Of a DNA stretch of 64,000 nucleotides, positions 1 to 46,852 are shown piece after piece. The stretch spans positions 558,001 through 622,000 of the forward strand of contig JAIXMQ010000005.1 of NCBI GenBank assembly GCA_025716855.1. The letters are read 5' to 3'. The notes beneath the pieces were generated by a model. The model saw only the letters and a program-made list of their open reading frames with translations, did not search any database and was not told the DNA's origin. This stretch comes from Pilaira anomala (taxonomy: Eukaryota; Mucoromycota; Mucoromycetes; Mucorales; Mucoraceae). How positions within the stretch are numbered: the first letter of the stretch is position 1; every line of letters begins with the position of its first letter. The position numbers were made by a program, and so were the translations under genes.

Positions 1-896
1 GGTCTAAAATAGGGTAAAAAAAAAAAGGTTTTTTTTTTTACGTTTATTTCTCGTGTCTTTTCTTTCCCGAATATTCATAGCAAAAAAGAATGAATTAACA
101 GCTGAAGTTTGACTTACTCGTTTTGTTCGTCATTTTATTTATCTAAAAAGTATAGAGAAGAGAGAGAGAGAAAGAGGGATAAAGTTAGATTGGCTTGGTA
201 AAAAATGCTAAAACTTTTTGCACGCTATACAAGTCACGACAAAGTCATTGGCCAATCAAAAGCTTTATTCTATTTTTTCCTCCGTCCGATTTCAAATGAT
301 TTTCCGATTTCAAATGAATTTCAAGACTTTTTGACATTTGCACTATAAGTGTACTACTTTGTTTTTTTAAAACAAACCTTTTCAAGGCTTTTTTTTTTTT
401 TTTTTTTTTAACTATTCCATTAAAAGCTGCTATGTATTTTGATAGCGGATAGTTTGAAGTCTCTATAAAAAAGCTATTTATGGAATAAATACAAACAAAC
501 TATCACAGAGTTTGCATAAACGCAAATATGTACAGAATCGTGCTTTATATTACCTTTTGTTTGTATATGTATACTCTTCTATCATTATTATTATTACGCA
601 ATAAAAAAAAAAAAAAAGTGTGCCAACAGACTAAATTTAGTCGGACTAACTCAAAGTAAATTTTTTTTTTAGCACTATAAGTATCTTGTTGGTAAATAAT
701 GTTGGTGAAATATGAACCAATACAAATTTTAACCAGTATTCCATTTATTTTATTTTTGAATTTACTAGATAGATACATCAATGATTTATTACAAAGTGAT
801 AAAATTAAACGTTATAGTCATGATTTACATACATGGATTTGTGCGTGGTTTAAGACTGCTTATTGAAAACTATATTATAGCTATTGTGATGTAGCT
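1..896. other. Intergenic, no gene seen
   Basis: AT-rich sequence with several A and T homopolymers. I see no convincing coding exon on either strand. The region lies immediately outside the left end of the mariner-like element, whose TA target duplication is at 897-898. Confidence 0.6.
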
Positions 897-940
897 TACT
901 GTATTTTCACGGGTTATTGAGAAAAAGTGAGCGAATTTTT
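897..940 (+). repeat. Left terminal inverted repeat (with TA duplication)
   Basis: Pairs with 3900-3943. A second, weaker copy of the GAATTGAGTGAATTTTTTGG type follows inward at about 950-985, suggesting an end built from two direct repeats. Confidence 0.85.
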
Positions 941-1075
941 AGTGAGTTTTTGGAATGAATTGAGTGAATTTTTTGGAAAATATTAGCTATTATTTTTGGT
1001 ATGAAAAAAAAAATATATATTTAATACCTGTTAGACAGTATCTTGTGTATCCTGAGCGTTAACTCGGAAGGAAAA

Positions 1076-3260
1076 TTACTGTAAACGAGTCTTTTTTTTG
1101 GCAGAACTGTCTTCAAAGTTTTTTCTCTTAAAGACATCGGGACGGGTCATAGTTTTTCTTAACTGCTTTACAATTGTCGCAAAGTTTAAAACCGCAGCCA
1201 AATCCCTGTTCCAGACACGGAAGTTATTACCATTATTATTGCTCACTGACTCTAAACATTGTTGATTTGTGCATCTGAAAATAAAAGTTTAGAGCTTGTA
1301 TAAAAAGTCTATATGATGTTTAAAAAAAGACCTACCTTAAGAGTCCGTGGCAGTTAACTATAGGGTTTTTGCTCCGTTGGTACGGTCTGGGGTTCTTGCA
1401 TTTTTTAAAAGTCTCTAACGATGAGCTAGTACAAGTGGGGCAGACACTAGAAGTCTTGTATTCGTTAAGGAGGTACACCTGAAACCCCTCTTTTTTCAAC
1501 ATTCTTCTAGTTCCTTTACCTCGAATTGGTTCATGAAATTTAGTATGAGCACCAGACCAGTCTCCGAAAACTAGTACGCTATCTTTTCCAAATTTTCTTC
1601 TTAAATTACTTGCTAGTCTTTTGTCTGCCTGTACTTGGTTTATATATGAAGATAATTTAAGCTTTCGAAAAGGAAGTGTATTTTCAGGACGTTCTTCTTT
1701 CTTCTTATCTTCGTTTGAATAATATTGATATAAATCCTGACTAACTTCGGCTCTAGCTCTGATATAATTTTTGTACTTATTTATATCAACAGTGGAAGCA
1801 GCATGCAGACTTAACTTTTCTTCGGCTTCTTTAACATGCTCGGGTTTATACTTTTGACGAAGCTTCCTAAACTTGGTAGATTTTGTTTCGACTGCTTTCT
1901 GGTTTCTAGTGTAGCGATATACCAATTTTTTGTCTTTTTCGCTATTTTCACTCATACAATACAATAAGTCTCTCCGACCAGGATCTATCAGAACGCATTT
2001 TCCTACAGTTGATACATGTTCTTGTAAAGATAGCTTCTCCAAATAATCGATATTTTCATCAACAGTTTTAGACAAAGTGCTTTTACTACAGTTACCTTTG
2101 CTAGTATCTTCATTCTGTTTTATTACAGAAACAGCGATACCATCCGTCATAATAGTACCTCTAAATTGTATAGATTTAGCTTTGCCCTGTGGTTTGACGG
2201 CTTTAGTAGACATATTTATAACTTGGTCCCATAATCTCTGCTTGTCTAATTTGCCTTGATTGGTATTTTTTAATATATGATTATTTAAAATTTTCGTATC
2301 AATTGTTATGTGGCAGGGTATAAACTTTTTTCTTGTCGGAAAGCATTGAAAAGATTTAATCTTACAAGATTCACATAAATTAGCAAGCTTGAAATATGCA
2401 AGTAGATGCTTTCTGGGACTTGCTTTGACGTCATAGTATATAGAGCCTTTCTTGAATTTATAAGAACTATCATAGGATGAGAACAGATCGTTTATATAAC
2501 CAAGAACTTTTTTATCACCAATAAAACCTTTGGGCATTTTGTTAATATCTTTAGTCGATATAGCGAGTTTGACTTGCGTAATTGGCTCTATTACGTTAGT
2601 TTTGATTGAGGCTTTGATCTCAGCATCGGAACAGTGTTTATTCGTTAAATCAGTTTTCAGCTGAGATATACGCTCTTTTTTTTGAAGTACGGTATTAATA
2701 AATCTTCTTAACTGATTACCAAATTGCAGTATAAGATTGTTGTCAAAGGCAGTTTCAATTTTTATAGATTCGTAAGTAGCAATTTGTTGAGCATTAGAAA
2801 GCTTGATGGGTACATATGATGAGCATTCTTTATAAGATTCGAAATGCTTTTCGATAATCCTTCTGAACTTGTTAACTGTTTCAGACAATTTTGATTTACC
2901 ACCTGTACTACCATCTCGACGTTTGTAATCTAGAAGCGATAGAAAAACTTCTCTATAGAAGCCCCGCGTAGCAAATTCTTCAAGTTCAAAGTTTTCATTC
3001 GTGTTCAATTCATGAATAAAGATATACTTTATCAAAGAAAAGGTATGTGTAACAATGATATTTACATCGTATACTAACTTCTTGAGCGTATCAACATACT
3101 CGTCTTTCCATCCTATTCCTTTGACAGAAGATTTTACAGTGATAATTTGAAGTTCTTTATGCTAAAAAAAGGGTTAAATACAAAAATAAAACCGCGTTTG
3201 TATAACATTTACATTCTGAGCTTCTTCTTTATGACTTTCTCCCTTACAAGGAGATAACAT
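1076..3260 (-). CDS. Fanzor (TnpB-like putative RNA-guided nuclease)
   Basis: Three exons on the minus strand (3260-3213, 3161-1336, 1274-1076) with GT-AG introns of 51 and 61 bases give 691 codons, a 690-residue protein. The C-terminal half is a TnpB/Fanzor RuvC nuclease. RuvC-I is LIDPGRRD with catalytic Asp near residue 409. RuvC-III is VWNRDLAAVLNF with Asp near 649, encoded by the last exon. A zinc ribbon is formed by CPTC (590/593) and CTNQQC (626/631), split by the second intron. At the usual RuvC-II glutamate position the protein has Gly (VFGDWSG, about 549). A Glu in LLNEYKTSSVC (about 583) could replace it, as described for a subset of Fanzors. The N-terminal 400 residues are basic and would bind guide RNA and DNA by family analogy. 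A TATAA-like box lies about 35 bases before the ATG. The uninterrupted stretch alone lacks the third catalytic residue, so the spliced model matters. The family call is strong; activity is inference. Confidence 0.9.
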
Positions 3261-3899
3261 TTTAATTTATATCGAAAAATTCTTTGGCTACTTATAAAGA
3301 AAAGAAAGAAAAGAGTTTTGTTTTTTTGAATCAATATAAATAAATCAGCTACTGCGGATTGTTGTCTAGTACTGATGCGTGACTACCTGTTTTCGTTACT
3401 CTTGATACACTTTTCCCTTTAAGATATTAAGAGGAAGTATCCTTTTACTATCTTTCTCATCTGTAGGCTTTTCTATTTTTATTTTTATTTTATTATTATT
3501 TTACGTATTGGTGCCCAACCTTTAGTGGTAAATTTATTATCTATTTTTCTATGTATCTTTTAAGCTGACTAAATTCTAGTTGGACCATATTTATAAAAAA
3601 ATACATCTAGTTTAAGTTTAAATCTTGGTGATTTCTCAGTGGCAAGTAATCACAACATTTCAGTACTTACACCAGTTATTGGCGTGAAGAGAGAAGCCTT
3701 TGACAGCGGGGACAAATTAACTCCTAGAATTTTAAGGGCATGCCAAGGTTGGATTAGACATTCTGTTTCATTTTTTGAACGCTGTTTAGCTACGGAAGGA
3801 AAACTTTGATAATCAAATTTTCTCAATTTAATTAATAAAATATAAACTTTCCCAAAAAATACCAGTCATTTTTTCTCAATAACTGCGTTTAATTTCCCC
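3261..3899. other. Non-coding interior of the Fanzor element, 5' side of the gene
   Basis: About 640 bases between the Fanzor start and the right terminal repeat. No ORF of interest and no transposase remnant recognised. It could hold the promoter and, possibly, a guide-RNA scaffold; nothing in the primary sequence proves this. Confidence 0.4.
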
Positions 3900-3943
3900 A
3901 AAAATCCAATCACTTTTTCCCAATAACCCGTGAAAATACAGTA
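3900..3943 (-). repeat. Right terminal inverted repeat (with TA duplication)
   Basis: Reverse complement of the left end. Inward from it, at about 3843-3888, lies a clear second copy of the subterminal motif (TTATTGAGAAAAAATGACTG on the minus strand), similar to TTATTGGGAAAAAGTGATTG in the terminus itself. Confidence 0.85.
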
Positions 3944-4384
3944 TATACATACTTCCCAATTACCAATTTATAGCAATTTATCTTTTTCTTTGTACATAAA
4001 TTTAACTGTATTTCAGCATTTTGAGCTTTTCATGTTTGATTATTTTTGTAGAGCTTACAAGTCAGAGAGAGCTTTTTTTTTTTGCTTCCATTTCCAGGTA
4101 CCATTATCACAATTGGTTATTAGTTATATTTTGTTCTTTGATAAGCTTTCGTATTTTGTATGTAAGTTCAAATGTTAAACTTGGAAAAAATATTACAATA
4201 AATGAAATACGAGCAGAGATTATAAAGAGAGAGAGAGAGAGAGAGAGAGAGACTCTGGTACCACTTTGAAAGATGCAGGTTAAAGTCAGTGCTTTGAGAC
4301 AAAAATGATCGGAGTTTTATTGAATATCAATGTCCCCTTTTTTGGCTTTTTGTTTTAAAAAGCAAGTTTTTTTTTTTTTTTTCT

Positions 4385-5671: not shown

Positions 5672-6882
5672 ATGACACAAACGATACTTGCAAAAGGTAA
5701 GCCTTATTATCCTTTTTATGTTTTCCATTAAATTAGAATTAGCTAGATGCTCGCTTGAAAAGAAAGACAGTAGAGTCACAAGTTTAAAGGTACACAAGCA
5801 CTTTACTTTATAGAAGAAAAAAAAAATTACGCCTCGTTCTTATTTTTTTTTTTTTTTCCCTTTCCCCTTAAATAGAGAAAAGAAAGAGATATGTCAAACG
5901 AAAAAGAAAACAAGAGGGTATTGACTAGTTTGCCCGTTCGATCGCGTATTAATGCAGATACAGACCTTTGGGATCAAGTTACTTTTCTAAAGCAAGATTG
6001 TCGAACTTCAGGTAATAATGAATAATAACAACAAATATATTCCATTTCTAAACCAGTAAAAAAAAAAAATTAGGTGTTATTCCTAGTTTAGAACCAAACT
6101 TTAAAAAAGGGGACACATTATCAGCTTATTTGTGTAGTCCAAGTACAGACCAACTTTCGACTGGGTTTATGGATTTAGGATGGGGATGTGGTTATCGTAA
6201 TTGTCAAATGCTAATGAGTTTTTTACAACACGAGATGCAAGATGGAGAACCGTTATTAAAGAATGTACTTGATATAACAGGAATTCAGTTATTGATTGAA
6301 AAAGCATGGAAAGAAGGATTTGATAGTTTAGGAGCTGCACAATTAGAACATCATGTATTCAAAACCCGAAAATGGATTGGTACAACTGAAGTATATACAT
6401 TATTCACTTACCTTGGGATTCGATCTACTATCATTGATTTTCATCAACCAGGTCCAGAGAATTTACATGAAAATATGTTTGATTGGATTGAATATTATTT
6501 TACATCGAATAATAATACGACGACGACTACAGGACATGTTTATATTACAAATAAACCACCACTCTATTTACAACATCAAGGTCATAGTAGAACAGTGATT
6601 GGTATCGAATTATTGAAATCTGGTAAAAGAAATTTAATCATGTTTGATCCCGGTAGAAGAATGTTGAGATTATCTTCGAGAATTAAATATAATTCATCCC
6701 TGTCACGACCATTTAGAGTAGATGATAAAACAATTGCAAAGAATAAACAATATTCATTACTGGTATTAGGTCAAGTAACAAATGATGAAAATGGAAAAAT
6801 GATTTGGGATTCAGATAAAAGTTATTTATTAAATGAAGATGAAAGAGAGCGTATGAAAAATATCATTAGCTTGACATTTTAA
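5672..6882 (+). CDS. Peptidase C78 family (ZUFSP/Mug105/UfSP-like) cysteine protease
   Basis: The well-supported part is 5891-6011 joined to 6074-6882. An upstream exon 5672-5696 starting at a good ATG context joins in frame if the acceptor at 5882 is used, giving about 320 residues; otherwise the start is 5891 (309 residues). The catalytic core is plain: DLGWGCGYRNCQMLMSF holds the nucleophile Cys, LIMFDPGRR the Asp, and GHSRTVIGIE the His of a C78 peptidase. No zinc finger precedes the domain, so the protein resembles fission yeast Mug105 rather than full-length ZUFSP/ZUP1. Family members cleave UFM1 precursors or Lys63-linked ubiquitin chains, and the sequence alone does not decide which. 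Its stop overlaps the predicted stop of the convergent nbp35 gene. Confidence 0.85.
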
Positions 6883-8028
6883 TAAACAATTTCTCTTAAT
6901 TCTTATATGATGTATATAATTAGTTGATGTAATATATAACACTATATATAAAAAAACACTTACTGTCTATAATGTCCTCATACGCTACACAGGCAGGTGA
7001 TTCTGGGTATTCATCAAGAAATGATACTCCCATATCACAACTCTTGGCCACTCTTGGATCTAATGGAATTCTACCTAATAAAGTAATATCAAACTCTTTT
7101 GCTAATGCCTCTGCTCCTCCTGTCGTAGGTGGAAAAATAACGGATTCTCCATGACAGTTTGGACATACAAATCCCGACATATTTTCAACTAATCCAAGAA
7201 TAGGAATCTTTGCCTTTTTACAAAAATCAATTTCTTTTCGAACATCTTGTAATGCAACTTCTTGTGGTGTTGTAATAATCACTGCTCCATCAATACCCGA
7301 TTCCTTTAAAAAGCTTGCTAATGATAAATGTTCATCAGAGGTACCAGGTGGTGTATCCACTAAAAGATAATCAAGTGTTCCCCAATCAACATCACGCAAG
7401 AATTGTTTAATTAACCCATTCTTTTTTGGTCCTCTCCAAATAACTGCATCATCTTTATCTGGCAACATGAACCCAATAGACATGACACTCAAATTATCTT
7501 GAATATAAACAGGTTGCCAACCACTGTTACTTTGATGGATTTGTTCATCCACAACTCCCATAATTGTTGGAATAGAGGGTCCACAAATATCAATATCCAT
7601 CACACCCACTTGTACATCTTCATCTCCTGATAAAGCCCAAGCTAATTGTGATGTAAAACTAGATTTACCTACGCCTCCCTTACCAGAAAGTACAAGAATC
7701 TTATGCTTTACTCCAGATAACCGTTCAGCAATTACCGTAATATCTATATATTCAATTATGAGTTGCTTTCTTTCATTTTATTTTATTTTATGTTACCTGG
7801 ATCTGGTCCTTTTGGTGCAGTAGCGCAAATGTTTTGGTTAGGACAGCCAGCACAAGCATCTTTTTTACCAGCTAATTCACTTTCAGGACCCTTTTTTTTT
7901 TTTTTATCCGTATTAGTCATCACTCAAAATGAAGAAGAAGAAAAAAAAAAAAAAGGAAGTTTCTACTTACAGGACAATGTTCATTAGCGTCTGCTGGGAT
8001 CTCTTCTTTCACAATAGTTGTAGACATG
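6879..8028 (-). CDS. nbp35: Cytosolic Fe-S cluster assembly P-loop NTPase Nbp35
   Basis: Scaffold NTPase that, with Cfd1, assembles [4Fe-4S] clusters in the cytosol. The N-terminal cluster-binding cysteines are present (HCPGPES, then [12 protein letters not shown]), followed by the Walker A variant [11 protein letters not shown]. After that come [10 protein letters not shown] and the second cysteine pair [10 protein letters not shown]. Exons on the minus strand are 7971 up to the start, 7890-7798, 7744-6964 and, most plausibly, a short last exon 6901-6879 ending in KLREIVY, which resembles the family C-terminus. The likely natural start is the ATG at 8028 ([16 protein letters not shown]), but one extra base near 7981 puts this out of frame with the conserved HCPG block. 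An alternative ATG at 7985 gives an intact 303-residue protein. Family call is certain; the two ends are not. Confidence 0.9.
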
Positions 8029-17987: not shown

Positions 17988-20555
17988 GTAGTAGTAGTAC
18001 TGTTACTGAGGATGAAAGTAACACTATTCCTCAAACATTTGAAGAAATCGTTCAAGGTGTCTTACCACCAACCCCGGGTGTAGCTCCTCAAAGACAAACT
18101 TTTGATTTAGGTGGTCGTTCAAGCGAAGATGTCGGAGATGTTGAGAGTTACAGCGCCAACCTTATTGCTTTGAATAAAATTGATACCAAAGAGATTAAAG
18201 CAAATTTACTTTCTCCAAGACAACAAGAAAGAGCTGGTAAATATTATATTCTATCATTTTATATTATGTATGCTCATACTATTTAATAGATGAACCTGTT
18301 CTTCGTGCTGTTCGTCACTTATTTAATAATCGATTTATGAAAGCTAAAAAGTTATTTGAAAAACAAGCTGAAACGTAAGTTAGAACACATGGTGAATAAT
18401 TTTTTTAAGAAAAAAAAAACTAAGCTATATATAGTGATCCATTACATGCCCTGGGTCTTGGTTCAATGGCTTTCTTGAAAGGTAAATAATAAAAATACAT
18501 ATATTTATAAAAAATTATTAACAATAACTTTATTTTTATTTTTTATTTTTTTAGCTATCATGGTATGTAGTGCAAAACTTGGATCGATGATATGTGTGTA
18601 ACTCGGTACTAACAAATTATAAAAATAGACTACAGATGATTTAATGTCTAAAAATGCTATTGATGTTCTCACTACAACATATAGTATTGCAAACGCACAG
18701 ATTGATGCCGCCACAAAAAAGTCGGTTGGTGATAGTGTTTATCAAGCAATGAGTTCCTATTATAACTATATTAAATTTACTCGTAAATCAGCTGGATTAC
18801 CTTCCAGTCCTAAACCAGCCACATTAAAATCTCTTCAAAAAGACGGTGTTGATTTCGTTCCTAATGGTGTATTACGTGCTCACGTGGCTAAGGCTGAGTG
18901 CTGTCTTCAAATTGCTATTTTACAATTATTACAAGAGAATGTGATGGGTTACATCAAGTGTGGAATGAATTTAAGACGAGGTATGTGTGTGTGTGTGTGT
19001 GTGTGTGCATGGTATATATATATAGTACTTAATTATTAACCATCCCTTCTTCAAATGCAGCTTATGCAAGTTATAGTCTAGTATGGCAAGAATATAAGCG
19101 CATGGGACAAATTTATAACGATTTTATTGACCGTGATACCATATCCGGAATTCAATTTGGGTAAGTTATAAACATGTGTATATGTACAGATAGATCTACA
19201 GTATCATTTACCCTGCATTTGTATTTAGTATTGGTGCTGTTCATCTTGTTTTATCAACTCTCCCTCAAAAAATTCTTCGTATCGTTTCAGCATTTGGTTG
19301 GAAAGCAGATAAACACCTTGGTTTTGCTTTATTAAAGTTATGTCTGGAAGAAAGAAGAATTCGATCCCCTATGGCTTCACTTATGCTCTTGGCTTATTAT
19401 ACAGTCTTGACTTCTTTATGTCCACAAATCTTATCAAGCGAATATACACAACCTGCAATCGAAACCTTATTAGATGCTCAAAGAACTTACCCCAACTCTG
19501 CATTTTTCTTGTATTTTGCAGGTCGTACTTCTCGTCTTGCACGTAACTTGACTCTTTCAACTCAATCGTTTATATATGCTATTGAGATTAGTAAGAGTGA
19601 ATGGGCAGAAGTAGAAGTATTCCATGCATGTAGTTATGAAATTGGATTTAATTATATGATGGAACATAATTGGGAAGAAGCAACTAAAGTGTTTGATCAA
19701 CTGTATAGAGAGAGATATTGGTCACCTGCCATTTTCCGTTACTTGACTGGTGCTTGTTTAGATATGATGGGTAATCGTACAGAAGCTATTTTAGCTTATG
19801 CGGAAGTACCTCAATTAATGGGATCAAAGACACATAGTACATCATTAATGGAAAAATATGTATTACGTAAAGTGACAGCTTTCCAAGATTGTGGTTATCA
19901 AGATATGGATATGTGTCTTGGTGCATTAGAATACCTTTGTCTCTTTTCAGGCTTTGATTTTATGAGTACAGAATTATTAGAAGAATCACTTGCTAGAGTA
20001 GATGATGCATTAACAAAGATTATGGAAGCCGAAAAGACAGAATTTGGTATTCGTACAAGAGAATTATTACCTGAAACACCTCCACCAAAATATTTTGATC
20101 AACGTGGAGCTTTACTCTTGGTTAAATCTTCTATATTTAATGCTTTAGGACGATTTAAGGAATCAATTATTCATTTAAATTGGATTATTGATCATAAAGA
20201 CCAAATTGAAGTTGATAAATGGATTGTGCCTTTTGCATTTTGGGAAGCCGGTGTTACTGCTTGGGGTATGGATAATAAGGTTCGCAGTAGATCTTTCTGG
20301 GAATCTGCTTTAAAGTTTAGCAAATATGATTTCGAATATAGATTAGCTCTGCGAGTTAATTTAGCTATCACAAAGGCCGAAGAACTTGGTGTTCCAAAAC
20401 CTGAAAACCCTAATCCCGCCAAACGTTATCAAGCCTCAAAGAAAGAACCTATCATTACTTTAGATTCAATCCAAAGTAGACAAAGTACTTCTGATGAACC
20501 TCATGCTGTAACTACCGCTGCTGCTGTTCCTGCTGCTTTTCAAGTCCACATCTAA
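17501..20555 (+). CDS. iml2: Iml2/TTC39 family TPR protein
   Basis: Seven exons (17501-18236, 18290-18374, 18435-18481, 18555-18562, 18629-18980, 19061-19160, 19229-20555) sum to 885 codons, 884 residues. The fourth exon is a micro-exon of 8 bases that restores the frame in FLKAIMTTDD. The first 200 residues are acidic and low-complexity, with a long Thr/Ser run from (ACT)n repeats. After that comes the Iml2/TTC39 domain with HLFNNRFMKAKKLFEK, GAVHLVLSTLPQKILRI and paired TPR-like helices to the end. Yeast Iml2 is a cytosolic and membrane-linked protein implicated in clearing stress-induced inclusions and lipid handling; animal TTC39 proteins are linked to lipid metabolism. The family call is firm, the specific role is not. 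Confidence 0.88.
17949..17996 (+). repeat. (ACT)n trinucleotide repeat encoding Thr/Ser tract
   Basis: Tandem ACT/AGT triplets inside the first exon of the Iml2 gene, giving a run of Thr then Ser in the disordered N-terminus. Confidence 0.85.
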
Positions 20556-35800: not shown

Positions 35801-35940
35801 TCTTTTCTGATGTTCAAAATAAATGTAAAAAGTCTATAACTCACAAGAAAAAAAAATATTGCTTCAAGCAGTAAGCTTGGTAAAGTTCAAACGCAATTAA
35901 AAAAAAAATCAAGTTCATCATTACCATGTTCAAAAATATG
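32829..35940. other. Gene-poor region upstream of the PH-domain gene
   Basis: About 3.1 kb of AT-rich sequence. It contains (TA)n runs at 33359-33545, TTC-rich tracts near 33915-33945 and an A17 run near 34328. No open frame has recognisable similarity or a splice-consistent extension. The first kilobase probably contains the promoter and 5' leader of the PH-domain gene. Confidence 0.5.
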
Positions 35941-36013
35941 GGCCGACACCGGGATTTGAACCCGGGATCTCGTGAATCCGAATCACGAAAGTTAACCACT
36001 CCTACACATCGGC
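35941..36013 (-). tRNA. tRNA, anticodon reads CGG (Pro?)
   Basis: A cloverleaf folds on the minus strand. Acceptor GCCGATG pairs with TGTCGGC, the D-loop has AGTGGTTA, the anticodon arm is CGTGA-TTCGGAT-TCACG, and the T arm is CCGGG-TTCAAAT-CCCGG. The discriminator is C. A T5 run follows at about 35930, fitting a Pol III terminator. With T at position 33, the anticodon is CGG, which would read the Pro codon CCG. Oddities are A rather than the usual G at position 37, a poorly paired D stem, and a G at position -1 opposite the C discriminator. An Arg (TCG) reading would need a shifted loop. No intron is present. Confidence 0.8.
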
Positions 36014-38428: not shown

Positions 38429-40012
38429 ATGGCTACGTAAGTCTTTTTTTATTTATTTTTATTTTGAGTAGTTATTAATTTAAAACAGTGCAGATATTGG
38501 TTTAATTGGTTTGGCCGTTATGGGTCAGAATTTAATATTGAATATGAACGATCATGGGTTTGTAGTTTGTGCATACAATCGTACACAAGAGAAGGTAGAT
38601 CACTTCTTGGCAAATGAAGCTAAAGGTACTAAGGTTATTGGAGCCAAATCTATCGAAGACCTATGTGCCAAATTAAAGCGTCCTAGAAAGGTGATGATGT
38701 TGGTCAAAGCTGGTGCTCCTGTCGATTCTTTCATTGATCAACTTTTACCTTACTTAGAAGAGGGTGATATTATCATTGATGGTGGTAATTCGCATTTTCC
38801 AGATTCTATTCGTCGATGTAAAGAATTGGAAGAAAAGGGTATTCTTTTCGTAGGTTCTGGTGTTTCCGGTGGCGAAGAAGGTGCGCGTTATGGACCTTCT
38901 TTGATGCCTGGTGGTAATCCTAAAGCCTGGCCTTTCATCAAGCCCATATTTCAAGCTGCTGCTGCCAAAGCACCCGATGGTGCACCCTGTTGTGATTGGG
39001 TTGGTGAATCAGGAGCTGGTCATTACGTTAAGATGGTTCATAACGGTATCGGTAAGGGCTAAAGAGAGAGAGAAAAAAAAAACTGATACATGTTTCATGA
39101 CTTGCTAATTTTTTATTTTAACCATTTTTAGAGTATGGTGATATGCAATTGATTTGTGAAGTATATCAGATTATGAAGGAAGGTTTGGGTATGACCGCTG
39201 ATGAAATGGCTGATACATTTGACAGTTGGAACAAGGGAAAACTTGACTCCTACTTGATTGAAATTACTCGTGATATCCTCAGATATAAAGATACAGACGG
39301 TAAACCTCTTGTTGAAAAGATTAGAGATACTGCTGGTCAAAAGGGTACAGGTAAATGGACTGGTATTGATTCCCTTGATCGTGGCATCCCTGTTACTCTT
39401 ATTGGGGAAGCTGTTTATTCGCGTTGTCTCTCTTCCCTTAAAGATGAACGTACGCGTGCGTCCAAGATTCTGAGTGGACCTAAAAAAGGCAACTTCAAAG
39501 GCGATAAGAAAAAGTTCCTTCATGCTCTTGGAGAAGCTCTTTATGCTTCTAAAATTGTTTCTTATGCTCAAGGTTTTATGTTGATGCGTCAAGCAGGCGC
39601 TGATTATGGATGGCATTTGAATTTTGCCGGTATTGCTTTAATGTGGCGTGGCGGTTGTATTATTCGTTCTGTATTCCTCGGTAAAATCAAAGATGCTTAC
39701 ACAAACAACCCTTCTCTTGAAAACTTGTTATTTGACCCTTTCTTCCAAGAGGCCACAGCTACTGCTCAAGATTCATGGAGAGAAGTTATTTCAATGGCTA
39801 TTGCAGAAGGTATTCCTACTCCTGCTCTTTCCACAGCTCTGAACTTTTATGATGGTCTTCGTCATGAAATGCTTCCTGCTAATCTTCTTCAGGCTCAACG
39901 TGATTACTTTGGTGCTCATACCTATGAACTTTTATCTGCTCCTGGTAAACATGTTCATACCAACTGGACTGGTAAAGGTGGCAATGTTTCTGCAAGTACT
40001 TATGATGCTTAA
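38429..40012 (+). CDS. gnd1: 6-phosphogluconate dehydrogenase (decarboxylating)
   Basis: Three exons (38429-38436, 38489-39051, 39132-40012) give 483 residues, the usual size. The first exon is only ATGGCTAC. The N-terminal Rossmann domain has [20 protein letters not shown] with the dinucleotide-binding GLAVMG. Next come [23 protein letters not shown] and [20 protein letters not shown]. The catalytic segment is [20 protein letters not shown] with Lys in the HYVKMVHN motif. The tail [20 protein letters not shown] is the conserved active-site closing segment. It makes NADPH and ribulose-5-phosphate in the cytosolic pentose phosphate pathway. Good codon bias suggests high expression. Confidence 0.98.
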
Positions 40013-45006: not shown

Positions 45007-46852
45007 TTAATAAGATACATTGTTAATATCCTTGGTGTATACTTCTTCAATCGAACTAGGCTTATGTTTTTTAGTCTCACCGACGACTTCATCATCATCA
45101 TAATCACCTGCTAATTCTTCAAGTGATTTACCTTTCGTTTCGTTAATCAAAAAACTAGAGAATATACCGGTCATCATAAAGAAGGCAAATATTTGCAATA
45201 AATGGTTGATCCAAGCATTTGGACCTCCAATATCCTTTAAAAGGCCAAAACAGAGTTGAGCCAAGATCGAACCCATCTTACCAGAGGCTGCGGATATACC
45301 ATGAGCTGTAGATCGGTATCGAGTCGGGAAGCATTCTCCAGGTACAACAAATGTTGTCGTATTAGGTCCCCAATTAAAGAAGATTTGGGTAATGGTAAAC
45401 AAGACGATGAATAAGACAACAGATGTATCAATGATTTGTTGGTAAGCAAATCCAAGTACACAAAACATGATCGTAAGCACAACGAAGCCCATAATTTGAA
45501 TCGTTTTACGACCCATTTTATCAATAGTAAATACGGAAATCCAGTAACCGGGTACAGAACCAAGTAAGTTAATAATCACATTACCTACACATACTTTAAA
45601 TACAGCTCTGTGTATGCATGTACATAAAAAAAAATATATATATATATAAAGTTAGTGATACATGAGGCATTTTTTTTTTGTTCTGTCAATTCTTTGTCTT
45701 ACGAATAAGCATCAGGACCACCAGCGAATCCAATTGTTTGAAGAATAATCGAGTTATTTAATCCAAGACCATACCAAGCGACATCAAGTGCAAACCAAGA
45801 ATAAGCTGTACCAAACAAAACTTTACCATATTTCCATTGTCCAAAATGGCGCCGAAAATCAGCCCAAGAAGCCTTGATAGGAACGTGTTCTTCTACCACT
45901 TGTTTTGATTGTGCGTTTACAGCCATTGCATCGGCCTCTGTATAGCTTCCAGAAGCAGCGCCAGTAGAGATAAAGGCCTTGGCGTCACTGATGCCTTTAC
46001 CGAATTCGTTTTCAATATCAATGGTATAACGAGGGGTCTCGGGTATAGTTAAACGATAGTAAAGAGCACACATGCCAGGGATAGCCCCGATACCAATCAC
46101 GATACGCCATACGTAATCCAAGTTAGCCTGATCGTATTCGATTGCGCTCTTAAAGGCAGCGGTAGTACATAAACCCACAATGCCTGCTGTGACTTGACCG
46201 ATACCTTGCATAGCAAATACAGCCGACATCATGGCACCCCGATGCTTGGTGGTTGCAAATTCAGCAGTGATGACAGATGATAAAGGGTAATCTCCACCAA
46301 TCCCGATACCGGTCAGTACACGCCAAAAGGTAATCACGGCCCAAAAGGAAGCAGCAGGTGCATTACCGACCAAGGTTTGACCGACGGTACCCATAATAAT
46401 AATCATAAGCTCTACACCGTACATACGCTTACGGCCCACATGATCCGCAAGGTAACCAAACAAGAGTTGGCCGACGACCGTACCTACTGAACAAGATACT
46501 TTGATCGCTGTATCCACATTATGAGGTGTCTTGTTGCCTTGGTCTTGCCAGTAAACGAAACCGATCATGGTAGAGACTAAATTGATAGCAAAAATATCAT
46601 ATGCGTCCGTAAAGAAACCAATACCGGAAACAATACAAGCACGAATATGGAACCAACCAAATTTAGCATTGTCAATCTAAGTAAGTAAATAAATAACTGT
46701 AAGATTTTTTTGGAGTGTGTGTGTGTGTGTGTGTGTGCGCTCTCTATTATGTATATACATACCTCATCCAGAGCTAAACGTCGACGCTCTTTTGCTGTCA
46801 AGATATTATTTGTATTTAAATTGTCGATAGGTTTTATTATTCCTTGTGACAT
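45007..46852 (-). CDS. pho84: High-affinity phosphate:H+ symporter, Pho84 family (MFS)
   Basis: Three exons (46852-46763, 46676-45703, 45607-45007) give 554 residues with about 12 membrane segments. The first segment begins FGWFHIRACIVSGIGFFTDAYD, the signature opening of the Pho84/PHT1 phosphate symporters with its Asp pair. The MFS loop GYLADHVGRKRMYG and the PHT1 motif GGDYPLSSVITAEFA are present. The second half has DKMGRKTIQIMGF and NWGPNTTTFVVPGECFP, also diagnostic. A large cytosolic loop separates the halves. Expression is probably controlled by phosphate, but I cannot identify a regulator site in the short upstream region. Confidence 0.96.

Follow-up and report, generated by a model that had tools for sequence, protein, structure and literature searches.

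A Fanzor1-bearing, non-autonomous Tc1/mariner-type element in Pilaira anomala, and a one-sided flanking motif that may record nuclease action on empty sites

The window, the whole stretch of 64,000 nucleotides analysed here from the dung fungus Pilaira anomala, contains at positions 899-3941 (minus strand) a 3,043-bp Tc1/mariner-type element bearing a Fanzor1 gene. The earlier note on this DNA had described a mariner-type element with 44-bp inverted ends and TA duplications, and both parts of this description are borne out. The inverted arms (897-945 and 3895-3943) are 49 nt long and 88% complementary, TAs included, and within them the terminal inverted repeats at the gene's 3' or guide end (899-942, plus strand) and at the gene's 5' end (3898-3941, minus strand) match at 39 of 44 bases. 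The TA target duplications lie at 897-898 on the guide side and at 3942-3943 on the gene's 5' side, and the mariner assignment is further supported by ends common to transposase-bearing mariners, described below. A search of the window against Rfam at gathering thresholds returned one match, a tRNA.

The Fanzor gene runs on the minus strand through three exons that join into a 690-residue frame with no internal stops. Exon 1 (3260-3213) is separated from exon 2 (3161-1336) by a 51-nt intron (3162-3212, phase 0, GT..AG), and exon 2 from exon 3 (1274-1076, which includes the stop) by a 61-nt intron (1275-1335, phase 2, GT..AG). Exon 1 and intron 1 are identical in P0001, a public 625-residue model of a sister copy of the element (P. 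anomala, C146). P0001 ends after ..CHGLLR, omitting intron 2 and exon 3, and therefore lacks RuvC-III. Intron 2 occurs at the same codon, with diverged intron sequence, in the three loci compared from a second Fanzor family of this genome (family B; the window element belongs to family A), and models P0003, P0010 and P0011 read the joined ..CHGLLRC..WNRDLAAVLNF, which supports its removal; P0002, another family B model, has a different ending. The proposal of a 690-codon gene with two phase-consistent introns and neither stops nor frameshifts is thus upheld. We also considered a further exon at the N-terminus (ORF 3650-3865 on the minus strand, where a different frame contains a CPRC-like stretch) and rejected it, because the plus strand there reads as the C-terminus of a transposase and the sister-copy model starts at the same ATG.

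The best match among proteins of solved structure is Fanzor1 of Parasitella parasitica (PpFz1; E 1.6e-178 over residues 14-676 of 690), followed by that of Spizellomyces punctatus (SpuFz1; E 3.3e-60), and these are the only two distinct solved sequences at E <= 1. Exon 2 encodes the N-terminal (WED/REC) part, RuvC-I (D409-P-G), the alternative glutamate E583 within NEYKTSS and the first zinc-ribbon pair (CPTC, 590), while exon 3 supplies the second pair (CTNQQC, 626) and RuvC-III (WNRD, D649); all of these residues align with the solved Fanzor1 proteins, so that the RuvC-I, zinc ribbon and RuvC-III assigned earlier stand, as does the Fanzor identity itself. The metal-binding residues of SpuFz1 are given as D383, E541 and D606 in a passage of PMC10432273, and Fanzor signature residues are named in the Figure 1 legend of PMC10711439. 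Pfam returned nothing above its cut-offs for the 690-residue protein (Cas12f1-like_TNB, E 1.9). Of 7,996 candidates scored in a protein search, 97 were homologues at E <= 1e-3, and those with a species name are all fungal (Mucorales; Coemansia and kin); DPG is kept in 84 of the 97 and a narrow glutamate pattern fits 38. A tree was built from 22 sequences of this set, including the window protein, which falls in a five-row group (support 98/98) together with a Thamnidium protein and family B of P. anomala; families A and B form separate lineages in it. The element almost certainly carries a Fanzor1 gene.

A search of the genome (34.25 Mb, 225 contigs) with the main exon gave at least 87 matches (72 of 140 candidates scored). 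Among the matches listed, four contain the exon at full length, 99-100% identical and free of stops: the window copy and those on C172, C146 and C24. Thus the search for further copies sharing the ends, which the earlier note had called for, yields three near-identical sisters. Compared pair by pair (six comparisons, each over 3,021-3,055 aligned bases), the four elements show between 6 and 23 mismatches, with 0 to 52 gap columns, and all four encode 690 residues. Codon changes between the window copy and each of the three sisters are few, 10 non-synonymous and 8 synonymous in total, with changes common to several sisters counted more than once and a random expectation of about 80% non-synonymous. 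Because the flanks of the four copies differ and each copy is bounded by TA on both sides, the four represent separate recent insertions. The suggestion that the element is young and active therefore stands in its first half; activity would depend on the transposase encoded elsewhere in the genome, as the element itself keeps no more than a remnant of such a gene, and the window copy has in addition a deletion of 11 bp. This deletion lies at the junction 943/944, about 45 bp inside the guide-side end, and the missing bases are present in C172, C146, C24 and the decayed C72. The check proposed for an empty site of the window copy gave none, the genome search matching its own two flanks only. 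Family B proteins are 55-57% identical to the window protein, and many family B genes contain stops; these elements have a TA duplication, arms of about 300 bp and a terminal inverted repeat that reads CAGGGTTTCCC..

The ends of the window element also bound elements of 1,689/1,690 bp on C2, C28 and C200, with a single such end on each of C79 and C105; the left end of the window element and the 1,690-bp elements are 93% identical over 42 terminal bases. The elements on C2 and C28, both 1,690 bp with ends matched at 44 of 44 bases, contain identical intact ORFs of 459 residues encoding a transposase (DDE_3, E 3.8e-27). In our reading, the spacing of its presumed acidic residues suggests a Tc1-like DD34E enzyme. 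The frame on C79 is open over 459 residues within an element that runs off the contig, that on C200 contains two stops, and C105 matches residues 1-366 only. The empty site of the C28 mariner was found on C35 as uninterrupted sequence with a single TA; the ORF interrupted by this mariner appears to us Gypsy-like.

The Fanzor element retains a piece of the same transposase. At 3681-3806 on the plus strand, inside ORF 3597-3809, a relic of the C-terminus aligns by tblastn to residues 410-459 of 459, with 42 codons remaining at 70% identity, and it recurs in the copies on C172, C146 and C24 and in the broken ones on C72, C181 and C1 (L018). With this relic as its only transposase sequence, where an autonomous Tc1/mariner element has an intact DDE transposase gene of its own, the element is filed as non-autonomous. 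Its other family hallmarks are present, namely TA on both sides in 4 of 4 intact Fanzor copies and ends common with a transposase-bearing member. The relic points to an origin by replacement, the most plausible reading being a mariner whose transposase gene was largely replaced by a Fanzor gene. Since the ends are common to both elements, the 459-residue transposase is likely to mobilise the Fanzor element in trans.

The guide and the transposon-adjacent motif (TAM) of the Fanzor protein are expected on opposite sides of the element. In TnpB-like systems the guide is taken from DNA past the gene's 3' end, with the TAM on the opposite side, and predicted Fanzor1 scaffolds include terminal inverted repeats and target site duplications, with reads running about 15 nt past the duplication (passages of PMC10711439). 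By analogy, the omega RNA scaffold would be expected in the 3' non-coding region and end (899-1075, minus strand), the predicted guide, by position only, in the first 20 nt past the TA (877-896, minus strand), and the predicted TAM side at 3942-3947 (minus strand), where the window reads TATATA, the same six bases as in most family A 5' flanks. Folding of the last 60, 80, 110 and 150 nt for an omega RNA (28 folds, from two ends of each family and three comparison ends) was not clearly better than for shuffled sequences (z -2.1 to 1.6). The TAM is given as ATN for PpFz1 in a passage of PMC11423790 and as CATA for SpuFz1 in one of PMC10432273; one passage of PMC11423790 gives the TAMs of GtFz1 and SpuFz1 in the opposite order.

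The bases preceding the TA were tabulated at ends that could be placed on one or the other side of the Fanzor gene, and they differ between the two sides. In family A, TATATA occurs in 6 of 8 flanks on the gene's 5' side and in 0 of 6 on the 3' side (p 0.0097); in family B, CATA occurs in 12 of 22 and 3 of 27, respectively (p 0.0016). Within the window, 5.4% of TAs are preceded by CA and 3.0% by TATA, and among 24 ends of transposase-bearing mariners used as controls CATA is found once and TATATA never. For both families together, AYATA marks 16 of 30 5' flanks as against 4 of 33 3' flanks (p 0.0009) and 3 of 24 ends of transposase-bearing mariners (p 0.0035). These motifs were chosen after inspection of the flanks. 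Ends fetched after the motif had been noticed give CATA in 4 of 7 and 2 of 12, for which the 5'/3' contrast alone has p 0.13. A label-flip permutation on the best dinucleotide before TA, restricted to elements for which both ends were available, yields p 0.023 in family B (20 elements), p 0.062 in family A (6 elements) and p 0.061 for the pooled families, whose motifs differ, while a paired sign test on YATA gives 13 versus 4 (p 0.049). Corrected for the choice of motif, the asymmetry is moderate. The flank motifs fit the published Fanzor TAMs ATN and CATA.

For these counts several rows were set aside or assigned individually. Among the Fanzor rows, C143b (the same insertion as C143a, in a duplicated segment), C18 and C180 (no TA at the 3' end), C197 (flank identical to that of C4) and the C168 end in L010 (side not assignable) were left out, and C101 was counted on the 5' side only. 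The side of C4, which has no Fanzor match, was assigned by its transposase relic, those of C150, C11, C170 and C1:210547 were set by the matching arm, and C145b (L038) was also given a side. C1 (L018) and C181 entered as deletion derivatives, and the C224 5' end (14450) and the C22 3' end were taken as belonging to elements with internal insertions. From the mariner controls we omitted C171:439916/441640 (no TA), C170b (flanks identical to those of C170a), C140, C145:273512 and C13 (content not assignable), C182a and C2b (lacking resolved ends), and C206, C152 and C53 (ends either not resolved or not retrieved). C135 and C208 look rearranged.

These observations can be drawn together in a single scheme, to which we assign, as a whole explanation, a probability of roughly 0.6: a non-autonomous mariner with an omega RNA and cutting of empty sites. 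In a mariner already resident in the genome, a Fanzor1 gene would have taken over most of the space of the transposase gene, and the 459-residue transposase would move the resulting element in trans. A transcript that continues across the gene's 3' end and through the inverted repeat and TA would take its guide from the flanking host DNA, and the Fanzor protein would then cut an unoccupied copy of the site carrying the TAM (..[C/T]A-TA) followed by the guide sequence. With the occupied copy as repair template, the element would be restored or would spread, in the manner proposed for TnpB in bacteria. The one-sided YA-TA signature would then be the TAM requirement made visible in the genome, and it may represent the footprint of Fanzor acting on empty sites. 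The parts of this scheme that concern the nuclease are held less firmly. That the element is retained through Fanzor cutting, an argument by analogy, we put a little short of even odds, and only tentatively, at lower odds again, do we propose that Fanzor works in vivo on the empty sites of its own mariner, with copies persisting or spreading preferentially where the TAM (YA-TA) lies on the gene's 5' side.

The flank motif could instead reflect an orientation bias of the mariner transposase, or chance; Fanzor would then be a passenger that contributes nothing to the spread, for which the transposase would suffice. Flanks on the 3' side of transposase genes, the side that corresponds by descent to the Fanzor 5' side in family A, do tend in this direction, with A before TA at 6 of 11 ends as against 4 of 13 on the other side (p 0.41), and on this single base the Fanzor 5' flanks (22 of 30) do not differ from them (p 0.28); the moderate outcome of the motif-corrected permutation also favours this explanation. 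Against it, the two ends of an element are nearly or fully identical, at 39-44 of 44 bases in the four family B copies compared and at all 44 in the two intact mariners, so that in family B a transposase should hardly tell the ends apart and a Fanzor ribonucleoprotein would. The near absence of both motifs from the mariner controls argues likewise, as does a comparison confined to mariner ends of the same repeat group, transposase-bearing or cut: with control counts made by eye, the 6 of 8 family A 5' flanks with TATATA stand against 0 of 10 such ends (p 0.0015), or against 1 of 13 when three ends with unassigned content are added (p 0.0032). On balance we regard the passenger explanation as rather unlikely.

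A second alternative concerns the window copy alone, which may already be dead as a Fanzor unit if its 11-bp deletion removed part of the RNA scaffold, leaving only the sisters to work. The whole omega RNA of PpFz1 is given as 75 nt in a passage of PMC11423790, so that a deletion some 45 bp from the end could lie within the scaffold. On the other hand, the same section of that paper suggests that the region past stem-loop 1 is non-critical, the deletion lies, in our reading, within a series of short, similar units, the guide-side region of C181 is missing other parts, and the protein of the window copy is intact; loss of function in this copy appears improbable. Recruitment of Fanzor for a host purpose such as defence or regulation, unrelated to transposition, is very improbable: a 2023 account called the natural role of Fanzor unknown (a passage of PMC10432273), but the gene is part of elements that have mobile ends and moved recently, and stops interrupt many of its other relatives in the genome, as expected of a selfish element.

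The scheme of a trans-mobilised mariner whose Fanzor cuts empty sites gains its interest from the setting, a single genome that contains intact young Fanzor elements alongside intact source-type mariners, with a relic that shows the swap and an empty site of the mariner. From the one-sided motif it predicts that the TAM of the window protein is YATA/ATN-like and that motif-bearing copies are kept longer. If true, asymmetry at insertion sites could be used to read out TAMs and in vivo Fanzor action computationally in other genomes, and a directional TAM footprint would be a sign of an RNA-guided nuclease aiding a eukaryotic Tc1/mariner-type transposon. Listings from searches of the open-licence literature showed neither this element nor a one-sided TAM signature for a mariner that bears Fanzor, nor a TAM footprint as a sign of an RNA-guided nuclease helping a eukaryotic Tc1/mariner-type transposon to be kept or copied. 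The earlier note's view of the element as a candidate for an undescribed system is not supported, since Fanzor1-only Mariner elements with TA duplications, such as PUl-4, were described in 2013 by Bao and Jurka (a passage of PMC3627910), and the closely related PpFz1 has been solved (PDB 9cf0-9cf3) and cuts DNA in vitro (passages of PMC11423790). New here are the four near-identical intact copies, the mariners with matching ends and an intact transposase, one of them with a verified empty site, the transposase relic and the one-sided flank enrichment.

Among known systems, PpFz1 is likewise from a Mucoralean fungus and has DPG, the alternative glutamate and WNRD in common with the window protein, and its TAM, ATN, fits the ..ATA beside the window element. 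It differs in that the alignment skips about 90 PpFz1 residues in the RuvC region, in line with a window protein lacking the cyclophilin-binding FRI insertion of about 100 residues. SpuFz1 is a Fanzor1 homologue with aligned active-site residues, and its TAM, CATA, is the commonest family B 5' flank; its authors, in a passage of PMC10432273, report having found no transposase between Spu-1 inverted repeats, whereas one was found for the family of the window element. PUl-4 resembles the window element in having the terminal inverted repeats of a Mariner family, TA duplications and Fanzor1 as its sole intact gene, while P. anomala combines in one genome the source mariner, a transposase relic inside the Fanzor element and several copies that are intact and young. 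Finally, TnpB of IS200/IS605 and IS607 offers the parallel of a proposed mechanism with a guide from flanking DNA, a TAM on the opposite side and recutting of empty sites, but those systems are bacterial and use other transposases, whereas the partner here is a Tc1/mariner-type transposase with a TA target.

An intact copy of the mariner whose ends match those of the window element lies at L012:1072-2761, within an open reading frame that we read as a Gypsy-like polyprotein, and its unoccupied counterpart, carrying a single TA, is found on contig C35 (locus L093). The public gene model of the sister Fanzor copy on contig C146 (P0001) lacks intron 2 and exon 3 of the gene, so that the RuvC-III motif of this Fanzor is hidden in the model. 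On the 5' side, a decayed Fanzor copy on contig C72 (L008:2495-6062) is flanked by sequence resembling an inverted-repeat terminus from another mariner. Inside this copy is a different transposase-like segment, with 36% identity and a single stop.

Elsewhere in the window, the genes for a C78 peptidase (6052-6882), a NUBPL/ParA-type NTPase (6920-7777), Iml2/TPR39 (19194-20555), 6-phosphogluconate dehydrogenase (39122-40012) and a sugar-transporter-type protein (45699-46676), together with a tRNA-Pro (35940-36013), are ordinary genes.

The second Fanzor family of the genome, family B, is represented by 15 listed loci (L020 and L019 among them) and by 51 end matches. One of its insertions is present twice on contig C143, where an inverted segmental duplication of ~6 kb (L020:1672-7805 and L021) encompasses it. 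Family B elements have inverted arms of ~300 bp, and the 5' arm region holds an antisense fragment of the family's own Fanzor gene, corresponding to residues ~475-525; this arm appears as if it had originated through inverted duplication of the 3' portion of the gene.
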